Shown here: piece after piece, positions 20,297 to 43,300 of the stretch
Position numbering within the stretch: the first letter of the stretch is position 1
Layout of the letters: each line of letters starts with the position of its first letter
Virus record (IMG/VR): IMGVR_UViG_3300024259_000036
Location: 1-58,587 of that record
Reading direction: 5' to 3' (one strand)
Source of the DNA: a virus
Length of the DNA: 58,587 nt
Position numbers and translations under genes: made by a program
Notes under the pieces: generated by a model
Databases searched by the model: none
What the model was told of the DNA's origin: nothing
The model's input: only the letters and a program-made list of their open reading frames with translations

Positions 20297-20308
20297 AAAT
20301 TTAAAAGA

Positions 20309-20337
20309 TTTACAAAAATAATTGAATGTGATATAGT
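20309..20337 (+). promoter_or_regulatory. Promoter inside the tRNA array, TTTACA-N17-TATAGT
   Basis: The predicted start (about 20344) coincides with the 5' end of the structured RNA at 20343. Confidence 0.75.
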
Positions 20338-20342
20338 AGTTT

Positions 20343-20448
20343 TAGTTTAACTCAAAACCCCGTGACCAATTAGTTTACTTGGGGAAGCACACAAGCAGGG
20401 TGTATAGGAAGGGGTATTCGTCTGTTAAAATCAGAAGGGGTTAAACTA
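20343..20448 (+). ncRNA. 106-nt structured RNA in the tRNA array
   Basis: TAGTTTAAC (20343-20351) pairs with GTTAAACTA (20440-20448). An inner CCCC...GGGG helix and a TCTG/CAGA hairpin follow. Four nt before tRNA-Ala; it could be released when that tRNA's 5' end is processed. No ORF. Confidence 0.55.
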
Positions 20449-20452
20449 ATAT

Positions 20453-20526
20453 GGGGCCTTAGTCTAACGGGAGAACACTGTCCTTGCACGGCAGATATGA
20501 GGGTTCGATTCCCTCAGGCTCCACCA
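20453..20526 (+). tRNA. tRNA-Ala(TGC)
   Basis: Acceptor GGGGCCT/AGGCTCC, CCA encoded, loop CTTGCAC, canonical T-loop TTCGATT. Confidence 0.9.
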
Positions 20527-20531
20527 AATTT

Positions 20532-20620
20532 GGGTGAGTTGAACAGGTGGTGTGTTCAGCGGGCTGTAACCCCGTAGGCTGTAATGGTCATTGTAGGTTC
20601 GATTCCTTCCTCACCCACCA
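20532..20620 (+). tRNA. tRNA-Tyr(GTA)
   Basis: Acceptor GGGTGAG/CTCACCC, long variable arm as expected for bacterial Tyr, loop CTGTAAC, CCA encoded. Confidence 0.9.
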
Positions 20621-20644
20621 AAACAAAAAAAAGAGGATTTACAA

Positions 20645-20782
20645 ATGAAAGATAAATGTGTAGTATGTGGTAAAGAAACTGAATATGACAAAGATGAACA
20701 CATTGACTTCAGATTGTTTTATGTTGAAGGTGCAGGACAATTGTGTAAAGAATGTTTTAGTGAAATATGGAATAGACGATAA
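20645..20782 (+). CDS. Small zinc-finger protein
   Basis: 45 aa with CVVC (5-8) and CKEC (35-38). Lies among the tRNAs. Unknown role. Confidence 0.7.
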   Translation: MKDKCVVCGKETEYDKDEHIDFRLFYVEGAGQLCKECFSEIWNRR

Positions 20783-20793
20783 AGGGGTTTACA

Positions 20794-20976
20794 ATGGCAT
20801 CAAAATCTGATGTGTTGAAAAAAGCAATTGAAGATTTTATATCAAGTGAAAGTAACGATCATGTTTCAGAATTTATGTTACTTTTTATTAGTTTTAATTC
20901 TGTAATGAAACAAGGTTCAGGTCTTTTGTGGACTCAGGTAGAGGATGTATTGAAAGAAGTATTTGAAGAAGAGTAA
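20794..20976 (+). CDS. Small acidic helical protein
   Basis: 60 aa, amphipathic helices with a hydrophobic middle (FMLLFISFNSVM) and an acidic end. AAAGGGG site. No family recognised. Confidence 0.6.
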   Translation: MASKSDVLKKAIEDFISSESNDHVSEFMLLFISFNSVMKQGSGLLWTQVEDVLKEVFEEE

Positions 20977-20983
20977 GATATAT

Positions 20984-21058
20984 GCTCCTATAGCTCAATC
21001 GGTAGAGCCGCGGATTTGTAACCCGCAGACGAGGGATCATAACCTTCTGGGAGCTCCA
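20984..21058 (+). tRNA. tRNA-Thr(TGT)
   Basis: Acceptor GCTCCTA/TGGGAGC, loop TTTGTAA, CCA encoded. Unusual T-loop ATCATAA. Confidence 0.85.
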
Positions 21059-21069
21059 TTAAAAATTAT

Positions 21070-21144
21070 CGGGTATTAGGATAATGGCTATCCACTTGTT
21101 TTGGGAACAAGATCACCCAAGTTCGATTCTTGGATACCCGACCA
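21070..21144 (+). tRNA. tRNA-Pro(TGG)
   Basis: Acceptor CGGGTAT/ATACCCG with the C1-G72 typical of Pro, A73, loop TTTGGGA, CCA encoded. Confidence 0.9.
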
Positions 21145-21155
21145 TTAAAAAATAT

Positions 21156-21230
21156 AGTCCTGTAACTCAGTGGGAGAGTGTCACTTTTACACGGTGAAGG
21201 TCGCTGATTCAATCTCAGCCAGGACTACCA
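21156..21230 (+). tRNA. tRNA-Val(TAC)
   Basis: Acceptor AGTCCTG/CAGGACT, anticodon stem TCACT/GGTGA, loop TTTACAC, CCA encoded. Confidence 0.88.
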
Positions 21231-21237
21231 AAATTAC

Positions 21238-21311
21238 GGTGGGATCTTCTAATGGTAAGAAAATCGCCCGATAAGCGATGAACGGAGGTTCGACTCCTCC
21301 TCTCACCACCA
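21238..21311 (+). tRNA. tRNA-Ile(GAT)
   Basis: Acceptor GGTGGGA/TCTCACC, stem ATCGC/GCGAT, loop CCGATAA, CCA encoded. Confidence 0.9.
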
Positions 21312-21375
21312 GAAATCATACAAGTTTTTGTATAGATCCATACAAGAGCTTGTATATATTCATACAAGAAATTGT

Positions 21376-21461
21376 TCTGGGATAGCATAACTGGTAATGC
21401 GGCGGGCTGTTAACCCGTGGATGAAAATCCTATGAAGGTTCAAATCCTTTTCCCAGAGCCA
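21376..21461 (+). tRNA. tRNA-Asn(GTT)
   Basis: Acceptor TCTGGGA/TCCCAGA, G73 as in Asn, loop CTGTTAA. The variable region is extended into a GGAT/ATCC stem, unusual for Asn. Confidence 0.88.
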
Positions 21462-21471
21462 AAATTAACAT

Positions 21472-21545
21472 GGATTCGTAGTTCAATAGAGAATACCGGT
21501 CTTTTAAACCGGGAGATGAGGGTTTAAGTCCCTCCGAGTCCACCA
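21472..21545 (+). tRNA. tRNA-Lys(TTT)
   Basis: Acceptor GGATTCG/CGAGTCC, stem CCGGT/ACCGG, loop CTTTTAA, CCA encoded. Confidence 0.9.
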
Positions 21546-21553
21546 AAAAATTC

Positions 21554-21627
21554 GGGATTATAGTTCAAGGAAGAACGGCAGTCTCTTAAACTGTAAAATG
21601 TGGGTTCAAATCCCACTAATCCCACCA
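21554..21627 (+). tRNA. tRNA-Lys(CTT)
   Basis: Acceptor GGGATTA/TAATCCC, loop CTCTTAA, CCA encoded. Confidence 0.88.
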
Positions 21628-21722
21628 AAAATAAAATAATTTGGAGTTATAGTGTCAAACTTGTATATTTTTTCCAAAAAAGTTTACTTTTTATATAAAT
21701 ATAATATAAAGGAGGTAAACAA

Positions 21723-22184
21723 ATGTCAAAGAGAAAATATACAAAAGAATTTTTGGAACCATTAGTAAAAGAAGCAAACTCTGTAAGAGATTTATTAAGA
21801 AAGATAAATGTTACTGATTCTGGAGGTTCTCACAAATTAATTTCTAAAAGGATAAAAGAATTTGAAATAAATACAAACCATTTTAAAGGTGGTCCAAGAG
21901 TACCACATAATAAATTAAGTTCAGATGATATATTAGTAGAAGATAGAACACCATATCATAAACAATTAAAAAGAGCATTAATAGAAATAGGAAGGTTATA
22001 TGAATGTGGTGAATGTAGTCAAGAATCTATATGGAATAATAAAGAATTAACATTACAAATAGATCATATTGATGGTAATAATAGAAATCAACTTAAAGAA
22101 AATTTAAGATTTTTATGTCCTAATTGTCATACCCAAACTAAAAATTGGGGTTTTAAAAATAAAATTCCACATAATAAAAAATAG
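21723..22184 (+). CDS. HNH homing endonuclease
   Basis: 153 aa. An N-terminal helix-turn-helix-like half, then CGECSQ, LQIDHIDGNNRN (110-121) and LCPNCHTQT: the H-N-H catalytic core on a zinc scaffold. Free-standing between tRNAs. TATAAATA about 28 nt before the AAGGAGG site. Confidence 0.9.
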   Translation: MSKRKYTKEFLEPLVKEANSVRDLLRKINVTDSGGSHKLISKRIKEFEINTNHFKGGPRVPHNKLSSDDILVEDRTPYHKQLKRALIEIGRLYECGECSQESIWNNKELTLQIDHIDGNNRNQLKENLRFLCPNCHTQTKNWGFKNKIPHNKK

Positions 22185-22189
22185 AATAT

Positions 22190-22268
22190 GGGGGTGTAGC
22201 ATAGTCCGGCTTAATGCAATACGTTGTCAGCGTAAAGATCGTGGGTTCAAATCCCATCACTCCCGCCA
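22190..22268 (+). tRNA. tRNA-Asp(GTC)
   Basis: Acceptor GGGGGTG/CACTCCC, G73 as in Asp, loop TTGTCAG, CCA encoded. Confidence 0.88.
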
Positions 22269-22274
22269 AAATAT

Positions 22275-22349
22275 GATCCTGTCGTCTAAAAGTAAGGACA
22301 TGAGGCTTTCAACTTCAAAACCGGGGAGCGTTACCCCGTAGGATCACCA
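22275..22349 (+). tRNA. tRNA-Glu(TTC)
   Basis: Acceptor GATCCTG/TAGGATC, loop CTTTCAA, CCA encoded. Unusual T-loop AGCGTTA. Confidence 0.87.
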
Positions 22350-22356
22350 AAATTAT

Positions 22357-22433
22357 GTTGGATGGAGCCATACGGTTGAGGCAGCACCCTGTGAAGGTGT
22401 TTTTAGTGGGTTCGACTCCCACCATTCAACCCA
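22357..22433 (+). tRNA. tRNA-His(GTG)
   Basis: Has the encoded G-1 opposite C73 that marks bacterial tRNA-His; acceptor TTGGATG/CATTCAA, loop CTGTGAA, CCA encoded. Confidence 0.92.
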
Positions 22434-22452
22434 TTTTAAAAAGGAGATAATT

Positions 22453-22710
22453 ATGTATTGTAATACTTGTGGTAGTAAAAAACTTGTAAGTATAGTATCA
22501 AAAACCTCTGATAGAAATAATATGTGGGTAGGTCATTTGAATTATGAGCATGATGGTTATGTATTACCAGACCTAGGTGTCGGTGAGGATGATTATATTG
22601 ACTTTACATATTGTCTATATTGTGGTAAGATACAAGGAAAGTTTCCTATTGAGGATAATGTTGTAAAGAATACATTAAGATTGAATGGATCAAATAGAGA
22701 TGGTAATTAA
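22453..22710 (+). CDS. Zinc-ribbon protein
   Basis: 85 aa; CNTCG (3-7) and CLYCG (54-58) form a four-Cys ribbon around an acidic insert. AAGGAG site. Unknown role. Confidence 0.7.
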   Translation: MYCNTCGSKKLVSIVSKTSDRNNMWVGHLNYEHDGYVLPDLGVGEDDYIDFTYCLYCGKIQGKFPIEDNVVKNTLRLNGSNRDGN

Positions 22711-22717
22711 TATATGT

Positions 22718-22803
22718 GGAGGGTACTGCTAAATGGCTGGCAACAAGGCTTGAACCCTTGGGCATCGTAACAGATGGGAGTTCGATTCTTCTACCCTCTT
22801 CCA
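22718..22803 (+). tRNA. tRNA-Ser(TGA)
   Basis: Long variable arm, stem CAAGG/CCTTG, loop CTTGAAC. Discriminator is T where G is usual for Ser. CCA encoded. Confidence 0.87.
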
Positions 22804-22815
22804 TAAAATAATTTA

Positions 22816-22844
22816 TTTACATTTCAAATTAACTATAGTATAAT
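22816..22844 (+). promoter_or_regulatory. Promoter, TTTACA-N17-TATAAT
   Basis: Perfect -10; starts the segment with gene 22870. Confidence 0.85.
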
Positions 22845-22869
22845 AAGGGAAAAAGAAAGGATAAATCCA

Positions 22870-23148
22870 ATGCATAAAATTGTTGATAAAATCGGTGGAA
22901 TAAATGTGTATGAGTATTGGTATCTCTACACTGACTATGAAACAAAGAAAGAGAAAACAGGATCAGGTACTTATATTAGATTCAGTGAGGTTCCAGAGGA
23001 ATGGAAGGAAGAGTTCGGTAAATGGCTGTATGGACAAACAATGCCTATCATTCCTGGTGATGAAACAAAAACAGATGGTGTGTATCCTTGGGATTGGGAA
23101 CGATGGTATGAATTAAAAACAAAAGGAACACCAACATATTTTGATTAA
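22870..23148 (+). CDS. Hypothetical protein
   Basis: 92 aa, rich in Trp and Tyr (EYWYLYTDYETKKE; EWKEEFGKWLYG). AAGAAAGG site. No family recognised. Confidence 0.65.
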   Translation: MHKIVDKIGGINVYEYWYLYTDYETKKEKTGSGTYIRFSEVPEEWKEEFGKWLYGQTMPIIPGDETKTDGVYPWDWERWYELKTKGTPTYFD

Positions 23149-23151
23149 GAT

Positions 23152-23181
23152 GCGGGTATAGTTCAACTGGTAGAATATTAG
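23152..23181 (+). pseudogene. 5' half of a disrupted tRNA-Gly
   Basis: GCGGGTA acceptor strand, a complete D-arm (GTTC-AACTGGTA-GAAT) and ATTAG of the anticodon stem, ending just before the anticodon loop. No 3' half follows; the HNH unit and then an intact but different tRNA-Gly come next. Confidence 0.75.
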
Positions 23182-23250
23182 GATAAAAAATGATAAAAAT
23201 GAGAAATTTCTTGACTTCGGTATAAATATATATATTAGGAGGATAGAAAT

Positions 23251-23934
23251 ATGATAAAAAGAGAATGTAAATATTGTAATAAAGAATTGGAATTTGATAA
23301 TGGATATCAATTTGGCGCTCATATAAGAAATTGTAAGTATAGACCTGATATTAAAGAAATAAATGATAGAGCGAGAAAAAATCAAACAAAAAGGAAATTA
23401 CATGATATTCAATGTCAAAAATGTGATAAAATATACCAATTAAACCTTACAGACTATGAAATTAAAATTGGTAAGCATAGGAAATATTGTTCTCCTGAAT
23501 GTAGAAAAAAAGAAAAAGTAGAAAAAATATGTTTAAATTGTAAAAAAATATTAATAAAAGGTCAGAAAAAATATTGTAATCATACCTGTCAACATGAATA
23601 TAAATATAATGAATATATAAAAAGATGGAAAGAAGGTTTAGAAGAAGGTCTACATGGTGAAAATGGTGAAAATGTAAATAAGAAAATACGAAAATATTTG
23701 TTCAAAAAATATAATAATAAGTGTGAAAGATGTAAATGGTCAATAAAAAATGAATTTACTAATAAAATACCGTTGACTGTTCATCATAAAGATGGAAATT
23801 ATAAAAATAATAAAGAAGTAAATTTAGAGCTTTTGTGTCCTAATTGTCATTCACTTACAGATAATTATGGTAGTAGAAATAAATCATCAAGTAAAACAAA
23901 AAGAAGTGAATGGAGAAAAAAAGTGCAGGTGTAG
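23251..23934 (+). CDS. HNH homing endonuclease inserted at tRNA-Gly
   Basis: 227 aa. Successive Cys pairs (CKYC, CQKC, CLNC) form N-terminal zinc fingers; the HNH core is LTVHHKDGNYKNN...LLCPNCH near the C-terminus. TATAAATA and AGGAGG precede the ATG. Its stop TAG is bases 8-10 of the tRNA-Gly at 23925, so gene and tRNA overlap by 10 nt. Confidence 0.88.
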   Translation: MIKRECKYCNKELEFDNGYQFGAHIRNCKYRPDIKEINDRARKNQTKRKLHDIQCQKCDKIYQLNLTDYEIKIGKHRKYCSPECRKKEKVEKICLNCKKILIKGQKKYCNHTCQHEYKYNEYIKRWKEGLEEGLHGENGENVNKKIRKYLFKKYNNKCERCKWSIKNEFTNKIPLTVHHKDGNYKNNKEVNLELLCPNCHSLTDNYGSRNKSSSKTKRSEWRKKVQV

Positions 23935-23999
23935 TTTAATTGGTAAAATCTTTGGCTTCCACCCAGAATACGGGGGTTCAATTCCCCCCACCTGCTCCA
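23925..23999 (+). tRNA. tRNA-Gly(TCC)
   Basis: Acceptor GCAGGTG/CACCTGC, U73 as in Gly, stem TTTGG/CCAGA, loop CTTCCAC, CCA encoded. Confidence 0.9.
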
Positions 24000-24009
24000 C
24001 AAAAATTAA

Positions 24010-24097
24010 GGAGAGTTGCCCCAATCAGGTAAGGGAGTTGGTTGCTAACCAATCAGGTGTAATAGCCTTATGGGTTCAAATCCCATACTCTCCTCCA
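24010..24097 (+). tRNA. tRNA-Ser(GCT)
   Basis: Acceptor GGAGAGT/ACTCTCC, long variable arm, loop TTGCTAA, CCA encoded. Confidence 0.88.
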
Positions 24098-24111
24098 TTA
24101 AAGGAGTTAAT

Positions 24112-24324
24112 ATGTTATCAATAGTGAAAGAAAACTTTCGTGATGAGGATGGTAAATGGGAAAATGATGGTTTGTTATGCCATATTTGTGGATTTATATC
24201 AGAAGCATATATGGTATATCAAGTAAATGCTTACAATAAAGTCTATGTCTGTAAAGGTTGTTTGTCCAAAGGTATTGAAAGTATTAATAATCACTATCAA
24301 GCACATATGAAAGGCAAGGATTAA
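24112..24324 (+). CDS. Small zinc-finger protein
   Basis: 70 aa from the ATG at 24112 after AAGGAG; upstream codons are tRNA sequence. CHIC (23-26) and CKGC (47-50) pairs. Unknown role. Confidence 0.7.
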   Translation: MLSIVKENFRDEDGKWENDGLLCHICGFISEAYMVYQVNAYNKVYVCKGCLSKGIESINNHYQAHMKGKD

Positions 24325-24572
24325 TGAATGTAATAAATTATAAAGTAAATGATAATGGAGAACGTGTGAAGGAGGTAAAGGTGTCCGTGAATAATGGTAT
24401 AAATTTAGGAGGTTTATTAGCAATTGTATTCATTATATTGAAACTGACACATGTTATTGCGTGGTCTTGGTGGTGGGTGTTAGCGCCATTATGGGTGGGA
24501 CCAGCATTGGGTATAGGTTTTGTTTTAATACTTATTATTGTAGGTGCTTCATTATCTTTTGTTGACAAGTAA
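24324..24572 (+). CDS. Small two-helix membrane protein (fragile-X-F-type family)
   Basis: 82 aa. Hydrophobic helices at about 28-45 and 53-79 around WSWWWVLAPLWVGP; the LKLT...WSWWWVLAPLW signature recurs in small phage membrane proteins filed as transmembrane Fragile-X-F proteins. Function unknown. Confidence 0.65.
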   Translation: MNVINYKVNDNGERVKEVKVSVNNGINLGGLLAIVFIILKLTHVIAWSWWWVLAPLWVGPALGIGFVLILIIVGASLSFVDK

Positions 24573-24573
24573 T

Positions 24574-24651
24574 GTTCCTCTGAAGGGAATTGGCATACCT
24601 TATTGATTCAAAATCAATAGTTTCTCGGTTCAACTCCGAGGGGGAACACCA
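24574..24651 (+). tRNA. tRNA-Leu(CAA), short variable loop
   Basis: Acceptor GTTCCTC/GGGGAAC, stem ATTGA/TCAAT, loop TTCAAAA, CCA encoded. The variable loop is only about 5 nt (AGTTT), although bacterial tRNA-Leu normally has a long arm. Confidence 0.8.
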
Positions 24652-24653
24652 TT

Positions 24654-24740
24654 GGGAGTGTGGCGTAACTGGCAGCCGCGTGAGACTTAAAATTTCATGG
24701 TCGTATGACCGTGGGGGTTCGATTCCCCCCATTCCCACCA
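24654..24740 (+). tRNA. tRNA-Leu(TAA)
   Basis: Acceptor GGGAGTG/CATTCCC, loop CTTAAAA, long variable arm GGTC/GACC, CCA encoded. Confidence 0.9.
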
Positions 24741-24748
24741 AAAAATTC

Positions 24749-24834
24749 GCCACCGTGATGTAATTGGTAGCCGTGCTGGGTTTAGATTCCAGTGTCCTAT
24801 GGGCGTGGGGGTTCGACTCCCCCCGGTGGTACCA
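24749..24834 (+). tRNA. tRNA-Leu(TAG)
   Basis: Acceptor GCCACCG/CGGTGGT, loop TTTAGAT, long variable arm, CCA encoded. Confidence 0.9.
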
Positions 24835-24855
24835 TTAATAAGAAAGGGAATAAAA

Positions 24856-25062
24856 ATGGGTACTGTAAGAGATTTTGTGTGTGAGTATGATTTACCTTAT
24901 GATCCTATAGTTGAAATGTGTGGGTATTTTTATTTAGATACAGGTGATTTGATGAATGAACCTTTCACATTCATAAAATTTTATAATAGGGCTGTTAGAA
25001 ACGTAGATGAACACGCATATAAAGGTGTTGTATTAGAATATGAAAAAGATAGAAAAAACTAA
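24856..25062 (+). CDS. Small hypothetical protein
   Basis: 68 aa from the ATG at 24856 (AAAGGGAA site). Acidic and aromatic. Its end overlaps the next gene by 23 nt. No family recognised. Confidence 0.6.
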   Translation: MGTVRDFVCEYDLPYDPIVEMCGYFYLDTGDLMNEPFTFIKFYNRAVRNVDEHAYKGVVLEYEKDRKN

Positions 25063-25255
25063 AGAAAGGATTCCTAACGGTCCTTATTGTTATGGTGTGA
25101 ATGGGTATCTTTGTCCATTCTGGAAAATTAATGAAAATAAACCTCATCAATTGAATGGGTATTGTGAGTATCTTAAATTAGGAGATTGGATGCAAGGATA
25201 CTCTTCAGTTCTATGGGATCAGGTGAAAGAATGTGATATAAACGAAGATTGGTAA
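25040..25255 (+). CDS. Conserved small phage protein, Cys-containing
   Basis: 71 aa. KERIPNGPYCYG, CPFWK, NGYCEYL and LLWDQVKEC-like endings (here VLWDQVKEC) follow a recurrent small-phage-protein pattern with four spaced Cys, possibly zinc-binding. Function unknown. Confidence 0.65.
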   Translation: MKKIEKTKERIPNGPYCYGVNGYLCPFWKINENKPHQLNGYCEYLKLGDWMQGYSSVLWDQVKECDINEDW

Positions 25256-25261
25256 GACTAT

Positions 25262-25335
25262 GGGGGTGTGGTCTAATGGCAAGACAACAGGTTTTGGTCC
25301 TGTTGATCCCTGTTCAACCCAGGGCATCCCTTCCA
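25262..25335 (+). tRNA. tRNA-Gln(TTG)
   Basis: Acceptor GGGGGTG/CATCCCT, stem ACAGG/CCTGT, loop TTTTGGT, CCA encoded. Confidence 0.87.
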
Positions 25336-25354
25336 TTTAAGAAAGGTGAATAAT

Positions 25355-26293
25355 ATGTTTCGTAGATATTTCTCAATTGAAGGTACCTGGCGTAACAAAG
25401 AGATTCAATGGTGGATTGAAAAATATCCAGAACTTGAATCCCTTACATATGTCCTACAGGAAAAGATACATGGTGCTAATATATCATGGGTATTTGCATC
25501 TGATGGTTCATTTGAAATAGGTAAGAGAACCACTGTATTGACAAATGAAGATAATTTCTATAACTTCAAAATTATGTATGAAAAGTATGCTGATGTTATA
25601 ATCTTGTTGAAAGAGTTTGCTATTGAGAATAAATGTAATCTAAATGTCTTTGGTGAATGGTTTGGTAAGGGTATTCAAAAGGGTGTTGATTATGGACCGG
25701 AGAAACAGTTACTTTTTTATGATGTGTTGGTAGATAATGTTTTGTTGTCTCCTTTTGAAATGGAGGATTTCTTCTCATTACTGGATATTGAAGATATGAT
25801 GGTTACTAATTTTGGTACAGTTGATACATTACAGGAAGCCATTGATTTTGATACATCTACAAAGATTACTAAAGTTTATCCAGAGGGTAAGTCCATTGTT
25901 GAAGGTGTGGTTATCAAACCTTATTATAACACTAAGAGAAGTGAGAATGGTAAGACCTTTTACTTGAAGAACAAAAATGAGGTGTTCAAAGAGATCCAAA
26001 AGAAAAGAAAAAAGAATAAACCTAGGGTTGAGTATCCTGAGCATGTTGCGAGGTTAAGGACAGCCTTTGATGAGTATGTAACTGAAGCTAGGTTGAACAA
26101 TGTATTTTCTAAACACGGGGAGATTGAATCTAGTGATGATATTGGGAAATACATCAAACTGTTTCTGGAAGATGCTCAGGAGGAGTTTACAAAGGATTGG
26201 AAGATTGATATAATGGATTGTGATAAAAAAGAGTTAAAGTATGTATATAATGTAAGTAAAGAGATTGTGAAGATGTTGAAGGAGAGAATGTGA
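25355..26293 (+). CDS. Rnl2-type RNA ligase
   Basis: 312 aa from the ATG at 25355 (GAAAGG site; a GTG three codons earlier is less likely). Nucleotidyltransferase motif I EKIHGAN with Lys37, motif IV EGVVIKP, motif V FYLKNK. The C-terminal 90 residues fit the Rnl2 helical domain. Seals nicks in duplex RNA, for example in tRNA cleaved at the anticodon loop. Its place inside the tRNA array and near the receiver-domain gene at 30319 supports tRNA repair. Confidence 0.93.
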   Translation: MFRRYFSIEGTWRNKEIQWWIEKYPELESLTYVLQEKIHGANISWVFASDGSFEIGKRTTVLTNEDNFYNFKIMYEKYADVIILLKEFAIENKCNLNVFGEWFGKGIQKGVDYGPEKQLLFYDVLVDNVLLSPFEMEDFFSLLDIEDMMVTNFGTVDTLQEAIDFDTSTKITKVYPEGKSIVEGVVIKPYYNTKRSENGKTFYLKNKNEVFKEIQKKRKKNKPRVEYPEHVARLRTAFDEYVTEARLNNVFSKHGEIESSDDIGKYIKLFLEDAQEEFTKDWKIDIMDCDKKELKYVYNVSKEIVKMLKERM

Positions 26294-26535
26294 TGTCTGA
26301 TATCAGAACAAAACAGGATCTATTAAATTATTTAACAAAGATGATAACAGAATATAATCCTAAATGTAATGACTCTATTAGACGAAATCATCATATGTTA
26401 AATCGTAGTAAGTTTGCAGCAAGTGTACCTGATACTGACATTGAGGATATTTTAACCGATTTTGTGAATTATGTTGGTACAAACCAAGGGCTTGATTGGG
26501 GTTTGTATGTTCATTATCTGGAAGGAGATGAGTAA
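26293..26535 (+). CDS. Hypothetical protein
   Basis: 80 aa; start overlaps the ligase stop. Helical, with IEDILTDFVNYVG in the middle. Possibly translationally coupled to the ligase. No family recognised. Confidence 0.6.
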   Translation: MSDIRTKQDLLNYLTKMITEYNPKCNDSIRRNHHMLNRSKFAASVPDTDIEDILTDFVNYVGTNQGLDWGLYVHYLEGDE

Positions 26536-26870
26536 TGAAAAAAGACGGTGGAACAATAGATAACTGGCAAACACATACTTTAACACTTAAACAAGAGAGT
26601 ATTGATAAGGTATATCCTGATTCAAATGCCACAGCACAAGTGTTTACAGGTACAGTTATAGAAAGTGATTTACTTAAATACCAAGCAGGTAATCATATGC
26701 GTTCCTCTTTGATTGTGAAGATTGATAGAGAGAATGGTGTAATTGAAACCTTAAACACTGTATATAAGGTATTGAATGAGGGTAATGATGATGTAACTTT
26801 AAGAATGGGAGAAATGTTTGGTATAGATTCACCTGATATTGGTGATAAGGTAATGGGATTGTTCTATTAA
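26535..26870 (+). CDS. Hypothetical protein
   Basis: 111 aa, beta-rich, starting at the previous stop (TAATG). No family recognised. Confidence 0.65.
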   Translation: MKKDGGTIDNWQTHTLTLKQESIDKVYPDSNATAQVFTGTVIESDLLKYQAGNHMRSSLIVKIDRENGVIETLNTVYKVLNEGNDDVTLRMGEMFGIDSPDIGDKVMGLFY

Positions 26871-26920
26871 ACCGAACAGTGAAATTATGAGTATTTCCAG
26901 GAAATTAACCGAGCAGTGAA

Positions 26921-27190
26921 ATGAGAACTGACAGCACATGTGAACATGAAAAAATTAAGAAAGGTATATGTAAATATGCTGTAAGAACAATGGTTTCGGA
27001 TGATTTACGCATAAATAGTGAATTGTATGTAACTTATAATTGTTCAATTGCGAGACCGGCAAGATGTCAAATGAACATATCCGATAGAGTTTTAAATTTT
27101 TCAATTTCTGATGCAGAGGAACTTGATAGGGAGTTAGAAAAAAGATTGGAGAAAAGAAAAAGTTTACAAAAAAGAACAATGATGTTATAA
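26921..27190 (+). CDS. Hypothetical Cys-containing protein
   Basis: 89 aa with Cys at 8, 17, 40 and 48 and a charged C-terminal helix. No clear ribosome site; an ACCGA.CAGTGAAAT repeat (26872 and 26909) lies before it. Uncertain start. Confidence 0.5.
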   Translation: MRTDSTCEHEKIKKGICKYAVRTMVSDDLRINSELYVTYNCSIARPARCQMNISDRVLNFSISDAEELDRELEKRLEKRKSLQKRTMML

Positions 27191-27204
27191 TAATTATAGT
27201 TGAT

Positions 27205-27279
27205 GCGGGTTTGGTGTAATTGATAACATAACTGGCTACCCGCCGGTAGATCCAGGTTTAAATCCTGGCGCCCGCTCCA
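27205..27279 (+). tRNA. tRNA-Gly(ACC)
   Basis: Gly identity features present: G1-C72, C2-G71, C35-C36, U73. Stem ACTGG/CCGGT, loop CTACCCG. A 7th acceptor pair mismatch and C37 make it slightly degenerate. Confidence 0.75.
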
Positions 27280-27297
27280 TTTAAAAGGAGAATTATC

Positions 27298-27465
27298 ATG
27301 TGTGGACCAAAGACAAAAGGTAAGAGAATGGAACGAAAGTGTAAGAGATACAAAAATGAAATGCGTAAAGAGAAAAATAAGGAGAAAAAGAAAATTAAGG
27401 AAGCTAAAAGACAAGAAAGGTTTGACAAATATAGGGCTAAAAGGTTGGCTAAGAAAGAAGGTTGA
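27298..27465 (+). CDS. Small Lys-rich coiled-coil protein
   Basis: 55 aa, over one third Lys/Arg, single predicted helix. AAAGGAG site. Likely RNA or DNA binding by charge. Confidence 0.65.
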   Translation: MCGPKTKGKRMERKCKRYKNEMRKEKNKEKKKIKEAKRQERFDKYRAKRLAKKEG

Positions 27466-27469
27466 TATT

Positions 27470-27655
27470 ATGACGATGTTTCTTTTTAAGGATGATATTG
27501 ATGATATTCCAGATTGTGATAAATACTATTACGATGAGTTCAAAAAGTTATATGGCTATGATGGTGGTTCATATAACTTGAAAATAATTCTTATGTTGTT
27601 AAAGCAATATTATGAATGTGCTATTATAAGGGAGAAATGTCATGTCAGACGATGA
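27470..27655 (+). CDS. Small acidic hypothetical protein
   Basis: 61 aa from the ATG at 27470, four bases after the previous stop; acidic, Tyr-rich first half. No family recognised. Confidence 0.6.
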   Translation: MTMFLFKDDIDDIPDCDKYYYDEFKKLYGYDGGSYNLKIILMLLKQYYECAIIREKCHVRR

Positions 27656-27812
27656 TTTCACAGTGGGGAAGATTACATTTGAAAAGAATAGTGCTTATAC
27701 AACTTTCCATTCTATGATGGAAGCAATGGGATGGACATTTGTTGGTACAAAGACTATAGAGGAAGATGATTATTATACTGAAGAAGAAAAGGATATAAAA
27801 AGAGGAATGTAA
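27642..27812 (+). CDS. Small acidic hypothetical protein
   Basis: 56 aa, overlapping the previous gene by 14 nt with a GGGAG site. EAMGWTFVGTKTI is a DUF4177-like WxFVG fragment. Low-level similarity only. Confidence 0.6.
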   Translation: MSDDDFTVGKITFEKNSAYTTFHSMMEAMGWTFVGTKTIEEDDYYTEEEKDIKRGM

Positions 27813-27823
27813 TAACATAAAAA

Positions 27824-27856
27824 TTGCACGGTAACATTCTATATGTTACCGTGCAA
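27824..27856. terminator. Strong hairpin between genes and tRNA-Arg
   Basis: TTGCACGGTAACA pairs with TGTTACCGTGCAA (13 bp, 7-nt loop). The T-run is on the minus side (TTTTTATG), so as a terminator it would face leftward; on plus it may guide processing. Confidence 0.6.
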
Positions 27857-27871
27857 AAATAGCGTTAGTAT

Positions 27872-27947
27872 CTCCCTGTAGCTCAGTGGATAGAGCATCT
27901 GCCTTCTAAGCAGAATGTCGCAGGTTTAAATCCTGCCAGGGAGGCCA
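27872..27947 (+). tRNA. tRNA-Arg(TCT)
   Basis: Acceptor CTCCCTG/CAGGGAG, stem TCTGC/GCAGA, loop CTTCTAA, CCA encoded. Suits the AGA codons common in this phage. Confidence 0.92.
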
Positions 27948-27950
27948 TTT

Positions 27951-28030
27951 ACCCCTGTATCCCCTTCGCCTCCTAAGTGATTGAAAGGGTAATTAGACAC
28001 ATGCAGGTGCAAGTCCTGTCAGGGGTTCCA
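27951..28030 (+). ncRNA. tRNA-like element with no normal anticodon arm
   Basis: Perfect acceptor ACCCCTG/CAGGGGT, discriminator T, CCA, and a T-arm GCAGG-TGCAAGT-CCTGT. The middle 43 nt do not fold into a D-arm plus 7-nt anticodon loop; alternatives are CCCTT/AAGGG and CTAA/TTAG. Decayed tRNA or a functional mimic. Confidence 0.6.
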
Positions 28031-28055
28031 TATTAAGATAAAGGAAAACAAACTT

Positions 28056-28319
28056 GTGAAAGTTATATTTAAAAAACTTGATGATATACCTAGAGCAGAT
28101 AGAAGAAAAGATCCTGTATTAGTGGAAGCAATGGAACATTTGTTTGATGGTAAAACAATTAGAGTGGTTCGTCCAGATGATGAAAATAGTGAATGGTTTC
28201 TTTATGAGTATATTGGTGAAAGATATGATGATAGTTATTTTATTCATCAAACATGGTTTAAAGAATATAGAATTGATGAACACAAGGATGTAATGAATTT
28301 ATTTTCAATGGAGATATAA
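28056..28319 (+). CDS. MKVIFKKL-family small protein, copy 2
   Basis: 87 aa, GTG start after AAGGAAAA. KVIFKKL, MEHLFDGKTIRVV and TWFKEY align with the proteins at 9893 and 28763. Unknown function; the two plus copies flank two CTS-like genes. Confidence 0.7.
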   Translation: MKVIFKKLDDIPRADRRKDPVLVEAMEHLFDGKTIRVVRPDDENSEWFLYEYIGERYDDSYFIHQTWFKEYRIDEHKDVMNLFSMEI

Positions 28320-28322
28320 CTT

Positions 28323-28514
28323 ATGGCGACATTTGATCAATGGCTTATAACAGAGGAATCTTATCCTGGGAATATTGGAATTATGGAGATTATTGCTTTC
28401 TATAAGAAAGCATCCAATAAAGAAGTTAAAGAGATGGAGAAGGTTGCAAAAAAGAAAGATTGGGAAGGATTTAAAAAGATCATTAAGGATGTTACAGGAG
28501 TTGACTTGGTATGA
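28323..28514 (+). CDS. Small basic protein with possible capsid-targeting N-terminus
   Basis: 63 aa starting MATFDQWLITEESYPGN: a short amphipathic lead ending I-T-E, compatible with the (L/I)xE site cut by T4-type prohead proteases. The rest is basic and helical. The next start overlaps its end. Confidence 0.6.
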   Translation: MATFDQWLITEESYPGNIGIMEIIAFYKKASNKEVKEMEKVAKKKDWEGFKKIIKDVTGVDLV

Positions 28515-28759
28515 AAGTTAAAGAATACTTAACAGAGGCTACTGCTATGAAATGGACTGATAAGACACCTACTAAGAAAGGTCATTATTGGGTAAGGAAT
28601 GTTGATGGTAAAACTAAGAAGTTTATTGTATATTTTGATGGTAAGTATGTAGAAACAACATTAGGTAAAATGCTAATGAAGGATTTTTTGCCTGATAAAA
28701 GGGGATTTTCTGGTACTGAGCGTCAATGGGCTGGTCCACTTCCTGAACCGAAAGATTAA
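28511..28759 (+). CDS. Candidate internal/injected protein (CTS-like N-terminus)
   Basis: 82 aa starting MKVKEYLTEATAM. The N-terminus resembles the T4 capsid-targeting sequence MKTYQEFIAEA, with LTE then Ala as a cleavage site. The mature part is basic, with WVRNVDGKTKKFIVYFDGKY. Function unknown; the targeting idea is inference. Confidence 0.65.
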   Translation: MKVKEYLTEATAMKWTDKTPTKKGHYWVRNVDGKTKKFIVYFDGKYVETTLGKMLMKDFLPDKRGFSGTERQWAGPLPEPKD

Positions 28760-28762
28760 AAA

Positions 28763-29014
28763 ATGAAAGTTATTTTTAAAAAACTTAGAGAGATTAAAAA
28801 TAAGAGATATGATAGTGAGATAGTTCGTTTTTCTCTTAGTAAGGAAATGGAGTATTTGTTTGATGGTGTTACAGTAAGGGAAGTATGGAAAGAAAAAGAT
28901 TACTATAGATATACAGATAGAAATGATAAAGCAACTGAATGGTATATTGATGAAAGTTGGTTTAAAAAGGATGATTTTAGTGATATAGAAAGGATGTTCA
29001 ATATAGAATTATGA
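28763..29014 (+). CDS. MKVIFKKL-family small protein, copy 3
   Basis: 83 aa: KVIFKKL, MEYLFDGVTVREVW, SWFKKD. Clear paralog of copies 1 and 2. Its stop overlaps the next start (ATGA-type). Confidence 0.72.
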   Translation: MKVIFKKLREIKNKRYDSEIVRFSLSKEMEYLFDGVTVREVWKEKDYYRYTDRNDKATEWYIDESWFKKDDFSDIERMFNIEL

Positions 29015-29172
29015 ATGAAAAATGTGAACATGATATATTAGATGAAGATTATTTATATCAATATCAGTGTGAAACACCATACTGCACAGTAACAGAAGAA
29101 AAATGTTTACAATGTGGGTGTTTTATAGTATCATGTGGATGTGGATATAATAATGACGTTAGGGAGATTTAG
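29011..29172 (+). CDS. Small Cys-rich zinc-binding protein
   Basis: 53 aa; CEHD, then CETPYC, CLQCGC and CGCG. Its last codons and the stop TAG lie inside tRNA-Phe, so the tRNA supplies the stop codon. Confidence 0.7.
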   Translation: MNEKCEHDILDEDYLYQYQCETPYCTVTEEKCLQCGCFIVSCGCGYNNDVREI

Positions 29173-29238
29173 CTTAATTGGGAAAGCTCTGGTGTGAAGT
29201 ACCAGGATGAATCCGTTCGATTCGGATAATCTCCACCA
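29163..29238 (+). tRNA. tRNA-Phe(GAA)
   Basis: Acceptor GGAGATT/AATCTCC, stem CTGGT/ACCAG, loop GTGAAGT, CCA encoded. Confidence 0.88.
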
Positions 29239-29241
29239 TTT

Positions 29242-29315
29242 CCTCCTGTAGCTCAAAAGTAGAGCGTAGTCCTTATAAGGCTGTGACGAAGGAGCGTTAC
29301 CTTCCAGGAGGACCA
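29242..29315 (+). tRNA. tRNA-Ile(TAT)
   Basis: Acceptor CCTCCTG/CAGGAGG, loop CTTATAA, reads AUA, a frequent codon in these genes. Unusual T-loop AGCGTTA. Confidence 0.85.
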
Positions 29316-29322
29316 AAATTAT

Positions 29323-29391
29323 GTCCCTACTCACTGGGGTGGATGATCGGCTGCAACCCGATTAATTAGGGTTCGATTCCCTATAGGGACT
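29323..29391 (+). tRNA. tRNA-Cys(GCA), CCA not encoded
   Basis: Acceptor GTCCCTA/TAGGGAC, U73 as in Cys, stem ATCGG/CCGAT, loop CTGCAAC. Unlike the other tRNAs here the genomic sequence continues TAAAT instead of CCA. Confidence 0.85.
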
Positions 29392-29469
29392 AAATTCAGT
29401 TTTCATAAATATTGAACTTTTATATAAATAGGTATATAACAAATCTAATTTATAGGAGAGTTCGAGAAA

Positions 29470-30147
29470 ATGACGAAATATCTAGTATATAAAATAACCA
29501 ACAATATTAATAATAAAATCTATATAGGTGTTCACCAAACAAAAGATGTAAATGATGATTATATGGGTTCTGGTAAAGTATTAAAACGTGCTATTAATAA
29601 GTACGGTGTTAAATATTTTATCAAAGAAATACTATATGAATGTGAAACACAAGAGGAAATGTTACAAAGAGAAACGGATATTGTTAATAAGGAATTTGTA
29701 AGAAGGAAAGATACTTACAATATCAATTTAGGTGGTTATGGTGGATTTTACTGCCTTAATGATGGTAGTAAAGAACATATTGAAAGATGTACGAAAGGTG
29801 GTAAAAGAGGTGGTAAAACAAGTGGTAAAATACACGCTGAGAAATTAAAAAATGATAAAAAATACTTGAAAGAATTTTCTGAGAAATCGTCATTTTCAAT
29901 GAAAGAAAAGATAAAAAATGGTTTGATAAATCCTGGCTTGAATTTCAAAGGTTGTAAACATACAGATGAATCAAAAGCAAAGATAGGTAAGGCAAATTCC
30001 ATATATCAAACAGGTGAAGGCAATTCTCAATATGGTAAATGTTGGATATATTCAGAGGTAGAAAAGAGAAGTAAGTCAATTAAAAAGGAAGAATTAGATC
30101 AGTGGCTAGAACAAGAATGGTTGAAAGGTAGAAAGATGAAATGGTAA
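29470..30147 (+). CDS. GIY-YIG homing endonuclease
   Basis: 225 aa. YLVYKITN and KIYIGVHQT carry the GIY-YIG motifs, followed by the conserved Arg/Glu helices. The C-terminal half has NUMOD-type CKHTDESKAKIGKANS repeats for DNA contact. Lies between tRNA-Cys and tRNA-Met. TATAAATA sits about 35 nt before the start. Confidence 0.9.
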   Translation: MTKYLVYKITNNINNKIYIGVHQTKDVNDDYMGSGKVLKRAINKYGVKYFIKEILYECETQEEMLQRETDIVNKEFVRRKDTYNINLGGYGGFYCLNDGSKEHIERCTKGGKRGGKTSGKIHAEKLKNDKKYLKEFSEKSSFSMKEKIKNGLINPGLNFKGCKHTDESKAKIGKANSIYQTGEGNSQYGKCWIYSEVEKRSKSIKKEELDQWLEQEWLKGRKMKW

Positions 30148-30154
30148 AATTTGC

Positions 30155-30227
30155 CGCAGGTAGCTCTGGTGAGCCGCCGAGACTCATAATCTTGGAAAGC
30201 AGGGTTCAAATCCCTGACCTGCCTCCA
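30155..30227 (+). tRNA. tRNA-Met(CAT), initiator-like
   Basis: C1 faces C72 (unpaired, an initiator feature). Loop CTCATAA, T-arm TTCAAAT, CCA encoded, short D-loop (GCTC-TGGT-GAGC). Close relative of the minus-strand tRNA at 12382. Confidence 0.83.
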
Positions 30228-39623: not shown

Positions 39624-39652
39624 TTTACAACCTATTAAAGTTGTTGTATAAT
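39624..39652 (+). promoter_or_regulatory. Promoter, TTTACA-N17-TATAAT
   Basis: Drives 39675 and the SSB gene. Confidence 0.85.
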
Positions 39653-39674: not shown

Positions 39675-39821
39675 ATGAAAATTGACGAATTAAAAGAATT
39701 AGAGGATGGAAGTTGTGAATTGGACTGCGAGTTCACAGATGAAGAAATTAAAATACTATTAAATTACGCGGTCAATAACCTATTGAGAGAGAGAATGGAG
39801 GAATTAAAAGATGGGAAGTAA
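39675..39821 (+). CDS. Small acidic phage protein
   Basis: 48 aa, highly acidic, with CEFTDEEIKILLNYAVNNLL. Similar short acidic proteins are frequent in phages; function unknown. Overlaps the SSB start by 11 nt. Confidence 0.68.
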   Translation: MKIDELKELEDGSCELDCEFTDEEIKILLNYAVNNLLRERMEELKDGK

Positions 39822-40788
39822 ATGGATTAACAATGATTTATTCGGTAAGTTCCAAGAACAGAAGAAAAATGAGAAAGATAAACCCACAGGTGGTACCGGA
39901 CTAAGACGTTCTGAATTAGCATGGAAGAACCCTGAGAAAGGTACTGTTGATAGAGCAAAGGTTTATGTGGGAAGATTTCTACCTGATCCTAAAGGACAAT
40001 TTTATAAGAAATATCACTATCATATGTTTAAGGTAGGGGAGCAATGGACATTTTTTATGTGTCCTAAAACCTTTCATTTTGATAACTTTTGCCCTTGGTG
40101 TTCTGCATCCAGTAAACTTTATACAGGTACTAAAGCAGACAAACAACAGGCATATCAATTCAAACGAAAAGAAAAGTTCCTTGGTAACTGGTTTGTTATG
40201 GATGATCCAAGAGATGCTGAAGCATCCGGTGATGAAGATAAAGTTAATAATACTGTAAGAGTATATGAATTCCCTGGAAAAATTGAAAAGAAAATTAAAG
40301 AGCAAATTACAGATGTTAATAATGGTTTGGGACCTTTGGTATTTGAACCAGGAGAAGAAGGATTTGATTTTATCTTAAAAGTTACTGCAACTATTAAAGA
40401 TAAGAGAGGTAAGGTATGGCCTGATTATGGTTTAAGTGAGTTTGGACGAAAACCACATGCTATTGCTGATACTGATAAAGAAATTCAAACAATTATGGAT
40501 TCAACAGTTGACCTTGATGAATATCTACAAGGAATGGAAAGAGATGATAATGATATTATAGAAGCATTGAAAACAATGATGGTATGGGACTTGGTTGGTG
40601 CTGAATGGAATAAGGCTAAAGGTGCCCAAAAGGCAGTAGCAAAGGAGCCTGAGGATGATATTCCTAACTTTGAGGATATTCCAGCACAGGAACCTAGTGT
40701 TACTGTAAAGGTTGAAGATACACCTCTGGCTGATGTGGAAGATGAATTGTCGGATGAAATGCTTATGAAAGAATTAGATTCCCTCTGA
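39811..40788 (+). CDS. Single-stranded-DNA-binding protein (gp32-like)
   Basis: 325 aa. A basic N-terminus for cooperativity, then an OB-type core with the His/Cys zinc site HYHMF...FMCPK...FCPWC (residues 69-96), and an acidic C-terminal tail (from about 275) ending DSL for partner binding, the gp32 plan. Coats ssDNA in replication and recombination. Strong promoter upstream, terminator after. Confidence 0.87.
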   Translation: MGSKWINNDLFGKFQEQKKNEKDKPTGGTGLRRSELAWKNPEKGTVDRAKVYVGRFLPDPKGQFYKKYHYHMFKVGEQWTFFMCPKTFHFDNFCPWCSASSKLYTGTKADKQQAYQFKRKEKFLGNWFVMDDPRDAEASGDEDKVNNTVRVYEFPGKIEKKIKEQITDVNNGLGPLVFEPGEEGFDFILKVTATIKDKRGKVWPDYGLSEFGRKPHAIADTDKEIQTIMDSTVDLDEYLQGMERDDNDIIEALKTMMVWDLVGAEWNKAKGAQKAVAKEPEDDIPNFEDIPAQEPSVTVKVEDTPLADVEDELSDEMLMKELDSL

Positions 40789-40810
40789 TGGACGAGTTAG
40801 AAAAACTATA

Positions 40811-40852
40811 AAATACCTCCTAAAGTATAAATACCATTTAGGAGGTATTTTT
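40811..40852 (+). terminator. Terminator hairpin that also hides an SD and carries a late promoter
   Basis: AAATACCTCCTAAA (40811-40824) pairs with TTTAGGAGGTATTT (40837-40850), then T-run. The 12-nt loop holds TATAAATA (40826-40833). AGGAGG in the right arm is the ribosome site of the GIY-YIG gene at 40853. Confidence 0.85.
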
Positions 40853-41647
40853 ATGATAATTTATAAAGTAACAAATAAAACTGATGGTAAATGTTATATA
40901 GGTCAAACTTCTAAAAATTTAAATGAAAGAAAGGGTGACCATTTTTGTATAAGAAGAAAAAAATCTTGTCCATATTTCCATAATGCTATACATAAGTATG
41001 GTAGAGATAATTTTGAGTGGGAAATTATTGAAGAATGTTCATCCAAGGAAGAAATGGATGAAATGGAGTTCCATTACATAAAGCAATATAATAGTTTTGT
41101 TCCTAATGGATATAATCTTACTATGGGTGGAGGTGGTGTATTAAGCTTTAAACTTTCAGAGGAAACAAAAAGAAAAATAAGTAAGGCTAATAAAGGCAAA
41201 ATAAAAACAAAGGAACATAGGGAAAAATTAGGGAAAGCTAGGGAAAAATTATGGAAAGATCCTAATAGTGTATATAATACAAAGGAACATAGGGAAAAAA
41301 TGAGTGAAGTCCAAAGAGGTGAATGTAATGGAATGTATGGAAAAAAACATACAGAAGGGACAAAAAGAAAAATAAGTGAAAAGGCTAAATTAAGAATAGG
41401 TGAAAAAAATAGTATGTGGGGAAGAAGAGGTGATAAATCGCCAAATTTTAATAAAGATAATTTATATAAACAATGGATAATAACATTACCAGATGGAAAA
41501 GAAATAATAACAAAAAACTTAACTAAATTTGGCAGAGAATATGAAGAAAAAACAGGAATAAAATTATATGTTAGTAATTTATCAAGTGTTTCCAAAGGTA
41601 TGTTAAAACACTATAAAGGATTAAAATGTAGAATGGAGAAAATGTAA
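40853..41647 (+). CDS. GIY-YIG homing endonuclease with NUMOD3 repeats
   Basis: 264 aa. IYKVTNKTDGKCYIGQT (3-19) is the GIY-YIG core. Repeated KEHREKLGKAR / TKRKISEKAK NUMOD3 helices form the DNA-binding middle, with a C-terminal domain beyond. Its ribosome site is buried in the hairpin at 40811, as in T4 I-TevI-type genes, so late transcripts should favour its translation. Confidence 0.92.
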   Translation: MIIYKVTNKTDGKCYIGQTSKNLNERKGDHFCIRRKKSCPYFHNAIHKYGRDNFEWEIIEECSSKEEMDEMEFHYIKQYNSFVPNGYNLTMGGGGVLSFKLSEETKRKISKANKGKIKTKEHREKLGKAREKLWKDPNSVYNTKEHREKMSEVQRGECNGMYGKKHTEGTKRKISEKAKLRIGEKNSMWGRRGDKSPNFNKDNLYKQWIITLPDGKEIITKNLTKFGREYEEKTGIKLYVSNLSSVSKGMLKHYKGLKCRMEKM

Positions 41648-41871
41648 TGAAAATTACTAAGATGTCAATGTTTAATGTCTCTGCAACATATGATAGTGAT
41701 TTTGATCGTATTTGTTGGGAGAAGTATTCAAAAGATATTATTAACATAGTTACAAAATATCAATATGAAACTTCTGATAAAGTAACATATAAGAAGATGG
41801 AAAATGATTTAAATGGGTTTATAAAGATGAAAAAAATAACCCATTTAGATGATAAGTTATTTGAACTTTAA
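41647..41871 (+). CDS. Hypothetical protein
   Basis: 74 aa, basic; start overlaps the endonuclease stop. No family recognised. Confidence 0.6.
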   Translation: MKITKMSMFNVSATYDSDFDRICWEKYSKDIINIVTKYQYETSDKVTYKKMENDLNGFIKMKKITHLDDKLFEL

Positions 41872-41933: not shown

Positions 41934-42332
41934 ATGGATTTTGGTTTAACCCCTTTTAGGAAGTATTATGTAACAGATAGAAATGAGAATGATGATAGTT
42001 TATATAAACAAACATGGAATTCTTTATGGTCTGGTATGGATACTTTCTTCGGGGATGCAAGATACAAAGATGATGATGGAAATACAATGTATGAGTTTGA
42101 AGTACCTGGCTTTAATAAGGATAATCTGAAAGTGGAAATTACTGATAATGTTCTTACTATATCAGGAAAAAGAGAAACTACAGATAAATCCCATGCAGGA
42201 GCTAGAGAAGTATTTAAGAGATTGAGTTTGGGTGTTTCTTCACCTAATATAGATGCAGAGATCAAGGATGGCATATTGTATTTGACTTTTGATAATCCAG
42301 AATGTGAAAAGAAAGAGATTGTATTGAAATAA
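41934..42332 (+). CDS. Small heat-shock protein (Hsp20/alpha-crystallin)
   Basis: 132 aa. The alpha-crystallin domain spans about 45-132: YEFEVPGFNKDNLKVEI, VLTISGKRE, FKRLSLGVS and DGILYLTF with the terminal IVL anchor. ATP-independent holdase; phage copies are known in large myoviruses and may assist virion proteins. Monocistronic, with terminator. Confidence 0.92.
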   Translation: MDFGLTPFRKYYVTDRNENDDSLYKQTWNSLWSGMDTFFGDARYKDDDGNTMYEFEVPGFNKDNLKVEITDNVLTISGKRETTDKSHAGAREVFKRLSLGVSSPNIDAEIKDGILYLTFDNPECEKKEIVLK

Positions 42333-42358: not shown

Positions 42359-42396
42359 TACCCTCATAATATAAATATGTTATGAGGGTATTTTTT
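42359..42396 (+). terminator. Terminator with TATAAATA in the loop
   Basis: TACCCTCATAA (42359-42369) pairs with TTATGAGGGTA (42380-42390), then six T. TATAAATA fills the loop (42370-42377). Confidence 0.88.
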
Positions 42397-42400
42397 GCTG

Positions 42401-42429
42401 TTTACATTCTATAATAAATAGATTATAAT
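42401..42429 (+). promoter_or_regulatory. Promoter, TTTACA-N17-TATAAT
   Basis: Consensus promoter 15 nt before the start at 42444; with the loop TATAAATA it gives both early- and late-type transcription. Confidence 0.85.
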
Positions 42430-42932: not shown

Positions 42933-43300
42933 GGGGATGACTGGTTTCGACTGGCTAGTGTTTAGTGAAGGTTGCATCCAGTGTAATTGTGATTATTACA
43001 CTTTAAACTTTATCACAAACATAAAATAATCGCAGATGATTATGAATTACGGATGGCTGCTTAACCAGCTGTTCCATTCTCTTACTTGCCTTCCTGGGCG
43101 AGTAATGTAGGGTGCCGACTAAACAGGATGCGTTATACACCTTATCATGTCATGAGGTGTATAACTAAGGTATTGTGACATGATCAATAGGTAGTTTATA
43201 AAGTTTGGACCTATTGAGACTTACAAACTTTATAATGGATGTATATCAATCGTCAAGGAATATAGTTAGGACGAGGGTTCGACTCCCTCCATCTCCACCA
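42933..43300 (+). ncRNA. ssrA: tmRNA
   Basis: 368 nt. The 5' end GGGGATGACTGGTTTCGACT and 3' T-arm GAGGG-TTCGACT-CCCTC with CATCTCC-A-CCA form the tRNA-like domain. The tag reading frame (43032-43064) starts at GCA after ...TAATC and reads ADDYELRMAA-stop, so the added tag would be A-ADDYELRMAA, ending Ala-Ala for ClpXP-type proteolysis. Rescues stalled ribosomes. Pseudoknot-like stems follow the tag. Lies between a coiled-coil gene and gene 43314. Confidence 0.95.

Follow-up and report, generated by a model that had tools for sequence, protein, structure and literature searches.

A hairpin whose loop holds a late-promoter motif: a probable early-off/late-on switch for a homing endonuclease gene in a distant T4-like phage

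Introduction

In the stretch of viral DNA analyzed here (58,587 nucleotides, hereafter the window), a hairpin lies between a T4-type gene 32 and a free-standing homing endonuclease gene, with a late-promoter motif in its loop and the endonuclease Shine-Dalgarno (SD) sequence in its 3' arm. The arrangement raises the question of whether the hairpin governs when the endonuclease is made, whether it serves the transcript of gene 32, or whether its promoter motif is incidental. T4 late promoters carry TATAAATA at positions -13 to -6 and are read by gp55 together with gp45 and gp33 (PMC1524935), and structures that sequester a ribosome-binding site (RBS), combined with a late promoter, have been described for I-TevI, I-TevII, I-TevIII, segB and Aeh1 mobE (PMC2988022).

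Results

Gene context of the endonuclease

The 58.6-kb contig encodes gp45, gp62, gp44 and other T4-type replication genes, and so belongs to a distant T4-like phage. Its gene for a T4 gp32-type single-stranded DNA-binding protein (39811-40788, plus strand; phrog_224, E = 2e-19; 48-73% identity to its relatives) is followed on the same strand by the gene for a free-standing homing endonuclease of 264 residues (40853-41647). Matches above the cut-off to PF01541 (E = 1e-12) and PF07460 (NUMOD3; E = 3e-15) indicate a GIY-YIG catalytic domain plus NUMOD DNA-binding repeats, and the protein also matches phrog_314 (E = 6e-44). An ORF of 74 codons from the ORF list (41647-41871, plus strand) overlaps the endonuclease stop codon, and an Hsp20-like gene (41934-42332, plus strand; Pfam HSP20, E = 1e-12) comes next, giving the order gene 32, endonuclease, 74-aa ORF, hsp20-like gene. 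Upstream of gene 32, a weak candidate for an early sigma70-like promoter, TTTACA-17-TATAAT, from which read-through RNA could arise, was located at 39624-39652 (plus strand; 11 of 12 positions in a consensus scan), although such matches were no commoner in the region than in shuffled sequence.

The comparison drew on 19 loci that carry a related gene 32. An endonuclease 3' of gene 32 was absent in every relative read, nor was the 74-aa ORF seen behind gene 32 in these relatives, and in L006, L039, L040, L046/L047 and L050 the hsp20-like gene follows gene 32 without an endonuclease (in L050 with a short ORF between them). By this comparison of gene orders the endonuclease is an insertion behind a T4-type gene 32, and the 74-aa ORF probably belongs to the insert. 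None of the relatives found shares this insertion, so support for the exact hairpin comes not from covariation but by analogy with the leaders of homologous endonucleases.

Geometry of the hairpin and its promoter

The 5' arm AAAATACCTCCTAAA (40810-40824), which contains the anti-SD sequence CCTCCT, and the 3' arm TTTAGGAGGTATTTT (40837-40851, followed by a T at 40852) form 15 contiguous Watson-Crick pairs, four of them G-C; the stem noted in a preliminary description thus stands, and its length is corrected from 14 bp. The loop of 12 nt (40825-40836) reads G-TATAAATA-CCA. Its octamer, at 40826-40833, is an exact match to the T4 late consensus, and the -13 to -6 placement known for T4 (PMC1524935) puts the predicted start at 40839, the nearest purine being 40840. 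The SD sequence AGGAGG (40840-40845) lies inside the 3' arm, wholly paired in read-through RNA and 7 nt from the endonuclease ATG at 40853. As the predicted late start falls one base ahead of AGGAGG, the entire 5' arm would be missing from the late RNA. A TTTTT tract (40848-40852), a possible weak terminator tail, overlaps the base of the stem in part. No -35-like element was seen, on reading the sequence by eye, at the usual spacing upstream of the loop octamer.

The fold of positions 40790-40900 has a free energy of -23.6 kcal/mol, versus -13.0 +/- 2.9 for shuffled sequences (z = -3.7), and none of 200 shuffles was equally stable. No Rfam family matched the hairpin at 40810-40851, and a search of viral contigs for the exact hairpin returned zero matches, so that the collection yielded no close relative of the site.

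Accessibility of the ribosome-binding site

The accessibility of the RBS was expressed as an opening energy, i.e., the free-energy cost of unpairing everything from the SD to the start codon, for read-through RNA and for RNA from the predicted +1. In an accompanying shuffle test, the read-through energy was recomputed after shuffling of the upstream part, with TATAAATA kept. Opening of the endonuclease RBS requires 19.8 kcal/mol in the read-through RNA versus 4.2 kcal/mol in the late RNA, a gain of 15.6; the read-through value ranges over 14-21 kcal/mol according to how much upstream RNA is included in the fold, and the late value stays at about 4 kcal/mol for RNAs starting anywhere from 40838 to 40840. 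The mean over 100 shuffles was 7.3 kcal/mol, and none was as high as 19.8 (p = 0.010, the lowest value possible with 100). The proposals that AGGAGG is buried in the stem, and that a transcript from the loop promoter would begin near the SD and leave it free, are both well supported by the geometry and the computed energies.

Among the T4 controls, gene e gave 17.4 versus 1.9 kcal/mol, a gain (15.6) equal to that of the window hairpin, I-TevII gave 13.1 versus 0.4 kcal/mol (gain 12.6, below that of the window hairpin), and genes 26 and 51 gave about 12 versus 2 kcal/mol. The shuffle test reached p <= 0.05 in 8 of 18 T4 late leaders and in 12 of 56 leaders of the clade (binomial p = 2e-5 for the clade), and the window endonuclease leader ranks third among these 56. 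Median gains were higher in GIY-YIG leaders than in other leaders (5.6 versus 2.9; Mann-Whitney p = 0.001), these leaders being related to one another and not independent.

Leaders of homologous endonucleases

A profile scan yielded 68 endonuclease loci with about 48 distinct leaders, the homologous endonucleases sharing 45-58% identity. Besides the window, 13 of the ~48 leaders carry TATAAATA no more than 75 nt from the start codon, mostly 5-12 nt ahead of the SD, while most have no TATAAATA at all. The pairs that hide the RBS in the read-through fold differ from leader to leader. In L087 the promoter itself constitutes the 5' arm (TATAAATACCTCC-AAAAGA-GGAGGTATTTATA), as it does in L090, where CCTTCC/GGGAGG pairing hides the RBS; in L055 the pairing is in another register (ACTCCTT/AAGGAGT), and in L103, L106 and L117 the ATG start codon is paired. 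In all six of these leaders the predicted start deletes the 5' arm, wholly or mostly. Palindromes are apparent in L067 and L026, where the computed occlusion is small; the weak cases are L076, L093, L056 and L095.

The shuffle test was passed by the window, L055, L090, L103 and L106. Of 13 GIY-YIG leaders carrying TATAAATA, 8 failed it, that of the second GIY-YIG endonuclease of the window among them; in part these failures reflect pairing of the RBS by TATAAATACC itself, together with the retention of TATAAATA in every shuffle. On these sequences and folds, a single switch logic appears to be reached by differing base pairs in several homologous leaders (L055, L087, L090, L103 and L106). The same outcome by way of different pairs suggests selection to silence homing endonucleases until late.

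The second GIY-YIG gene of the window (29423-30147) has TATAAATA 47 nt before its start, with occlusion that is not significant (ddG 5.1, p = 0.07). About 25 tRNA genes, which together serve most amino acids, are densely clustered at 20219-30227; HNH-like genes occur among them, and there too TATAAATA is found just upstream (21694 and 23221).

Comparison with known switches

In the T4 record the leader of gene e runs ATACCTTC-TATAAATACTT-AGGAGGTATT-ATG. As in the window, TATAAATA occupies the loop, AGGAGGTATT the 3' arm, and an anti-SD arm lies upstream; unlike the window, gene e has two tandem late promoters, encodes a lysis protein (lysozyme) and has a hairpin without a U-tract. The intron-encoded I-TevI, I-TevII and I-TevIII resemble the window in having an endonuclease SD that is sequestered early and released through a late promoter embedded in the structure (PMC2988022), whereas the window endonuclease is free-standing behind gene 32. 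In T4 I-TevI the promoter-like AATAAATA is in the stem and not, as in the window, in the loop, and the fold of the T4 soc leader hides the start codon. Both arrangements occur within T4 itself.

The free-standing genes T4 segB and Aeh1 mobE likewise combine an RBS-sequestering RNA structure with a late promoter (PMC2988022); they lie at other loci, mobE is an HNH endonuclease, and the window hairpin additionally has a U-tract. T4 segG is, like the window gene, a free-standing GIY-YIG endonuclease adjoining gene 32. It is located upstream of gene 32 and served by upstream T4 promoters (PMC2988022; T4 record), in contrast to the downstream position and own late promoter of the window gene.

Termination at the endonuclease hairpin

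The preliminary description had the stem terminate early transcripts. The TTTTT tail agrees with that claim, the best d'Aubenton-Carafa-type score for 40814-40847 is borderline at -0.85 (threshold 0), and the leaders of L055, L087, L090, T4 e, I-TevI and I-TevII, at -39 to -85, are far below it. A simple terminator scan had omitted the hairpin because its loop limit was 8 and the loop here is of 12 nt. Occlusion and promoter are thus common to the homologous leaders and the U-tract is not, and a true terminator was rejected on these scores as the main reading. Being borderline here and absent from the homologous leaders, T4 e, I-TevI and I-TevII, termination would be at most accessory. Partial termination of early transcripts at the hairpin is possible; for comparison, a terminator within T4 mobE has been reported to give ~30% termination (PMC2988022).

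Late-promoter motifs in terminator loops

A second hairpin of the window (42359-42390, plus strand) is a strong intrinsic terminator, with a 14-bp stem, a TTTTTT tract and a score of +20.8; it holds TATAAATA (42370-42377) in its loop and contains no SD. An early-type promoter, TTTACA-17-TATAAT (42401-42429, plus strand; 11 of 12 positions), lies behind it, ahead of the gene at 42444. In a relative, a homologue of that gene follows an identically ordered element (L017:15557) whose stem differs (ACCCCAGTA...TACTGGGGT). Further terminators with TATAAATA in the loop and no SD were detected behind hsp20 (L025:10931) and immediately ahead of a gene homologous to T4 terminase gene 17 (L031:4197). PeSL cassettes of T4-like phages consist of an early promoter and a terminator stem-loop. 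The 42359-42429 element and L017:15557 resemble them in having a terminator and then an early-type promoter, and the window element differs in that its loop additionally holds a late promoter. Just behind the 40811 hairpin, no early-type promoter was listed in the consensus scan.

In 487 kb of related contigs, 14 of 146 copies of TATAAATA were in strong hairpins, versus 188 of 6896 for 55 permuted 8-mers (Fisher p = 7e-5), one of the 14, on the minus strand of L031, being the complement of another TATAAATA palindrome and not independent. In a survey with an ad hoc definition of terminators, on contigs related to one another, TATAAATA was inside 5 of 149 terminator-like hairpins (0.44 expected from the permuted 8-mers; Poisson p = 9e-5). 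The 40811 hairpin is one of the five, and the next highest counts include those of permuted 8-mers that overlap TATAAATA. The octamer was found within 60 nt downstream of 12 of the 149 (2.0 expected, p = 1e-6); in T4 it was in none of 18 terminator-like hairpins. A clade-wide element for 'stop early, start late' control, built from an intrinsic terminator whose loop holds the late promoter, reused before different genes with its stems changed and represented at 40811 by an RBS-hiding form, can be suggested tentatively, with rather less than even confidence.

Several other features of these regions were observed. A full-length tmRNA gene (42933-43300, plus strand; Rfam 139.6 bits; tag ADDYELRMAA) is located just behind the second hairpin. 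A 530-aa protein of the phage RNA-binding family phrog_850 (E = 5e-59) is encoded at 350-1942 on the minus strand, and near its gene, on the same strand, a terminator-like hairpin and two copies of TATAAATA occur at 235-313. The terminase (T4 gp17) homologue at L031:4307-6937 is apparently divided by a split intein, as judged by eye, its first ORF ending in an intein-like N-half and its second opening with an intein-like C-half; between the two lies a GIY-YIG endonuclease gene with its own late-promoter hairpin.

Late transcription factors

Of the related contigs, G016, G018, G019 and G021 encode a gp55-type sigma factor; G016 also has a relative of gene 32, and G018 carries TATAAATA with a homologous endonuclease. 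In the 58.6-kb window record, possibly a fragment, gp55 and gp33 were both sought and neither was found, and the search of the related contigs for gp33 gave one weak partial match, in G011. A search for TATAAATA upstream of structural-gene homologues yielded little, because few structural genes are present on the contigs examined; the terminase in L031 was the sole useful case.

Discussion

Alternative readings of the hairpin

Its position directly behind gene 32, with TTTTT following the stem, and its inclusion in the terminator survey would suit a hairpin that mainly terminates the gene 32 unit, the loop TATAAATA and the SD in the arm being incidental to A+T-rich sequence. Such a role seems unlikely, given that the score of -0.85 compares with +9 to +35 for the four plain terminators whose loops contain TATAAATA, that the homologous leaders keep promoter and occlusion while the U-tract is missing, that the read-through opening energy is well beyond that of the shuffles, and that TATAAATA is commoner in hairpins than expected. 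The same position immediately 3' of gene 32 could also befit a 3'-end stabilizer or processing site of the gene 32 mRNA, and the RNA of T4 segG, which adjoins gene 32, is processed by RNase E (PMC2988022). However, reading by eye revealed no matching hairpin just 3' of gene 32 in the relatives, and the structure is like those of endonuclease leaders at other loci; we regard this role as highly improbable.

The hairpin might instead impose a constant low translation on a mobile gene, with TATAAATA being no promoter at all. An octamer of only eight bases is common in A+T-rich DNA (19 copies in the window, counting both strands), and the late factors were not found within the window record. Nevertheless, the exact consensus stands here at a spacing that would free the SD, similar spacing is found in homologous and T4 leaders, gp55 is encoded by relatives, and in L031 a hairpin with a TATAAATA loop is immediately 5' of the homologue of a late gene, the terminase. 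Constant repression thus appears unlikely, about as much so as a mainly terminating hairpin.

A T4-type switch and its significance

The hairpin is very probably a T4-type early-off/late-on switch for the homing endonuclease. Early RNA from promoters upstream of gene 32 would run into the endonuclease gene, and in this RNA the CCTCCT of the 5' arm would pair with AGGAGG and block ribosomes; the hairpin may also terminate some of the early transcripts. After takeover by gp55, RNA polymerase would start from TATAAATA in the hairpin loop, and the late RNA from about 40839, devoid of the 5' arm, would carry an exposed SD right at its 5' terminus and be translated. An SD in that extreme position may be poorly used by ribosomes, which counts against the switch. 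The prediction of a T4-type switch at this site therefore holds for SD sequestration and promoter placement, with termination only borderline, and the combination of late promoter and RBS occlusion finds good support in the comparisons with T4 and the homologous leaders.

The endonuclease switch itself is of an already known kind, and the present comparison would extend a T4 form of control to a distant, uncultured T4-like group. The composite of terminator and late promoter is less familiar and, if used, would represent a very compact element in which the halt of early transcription is coupled to late initiation.
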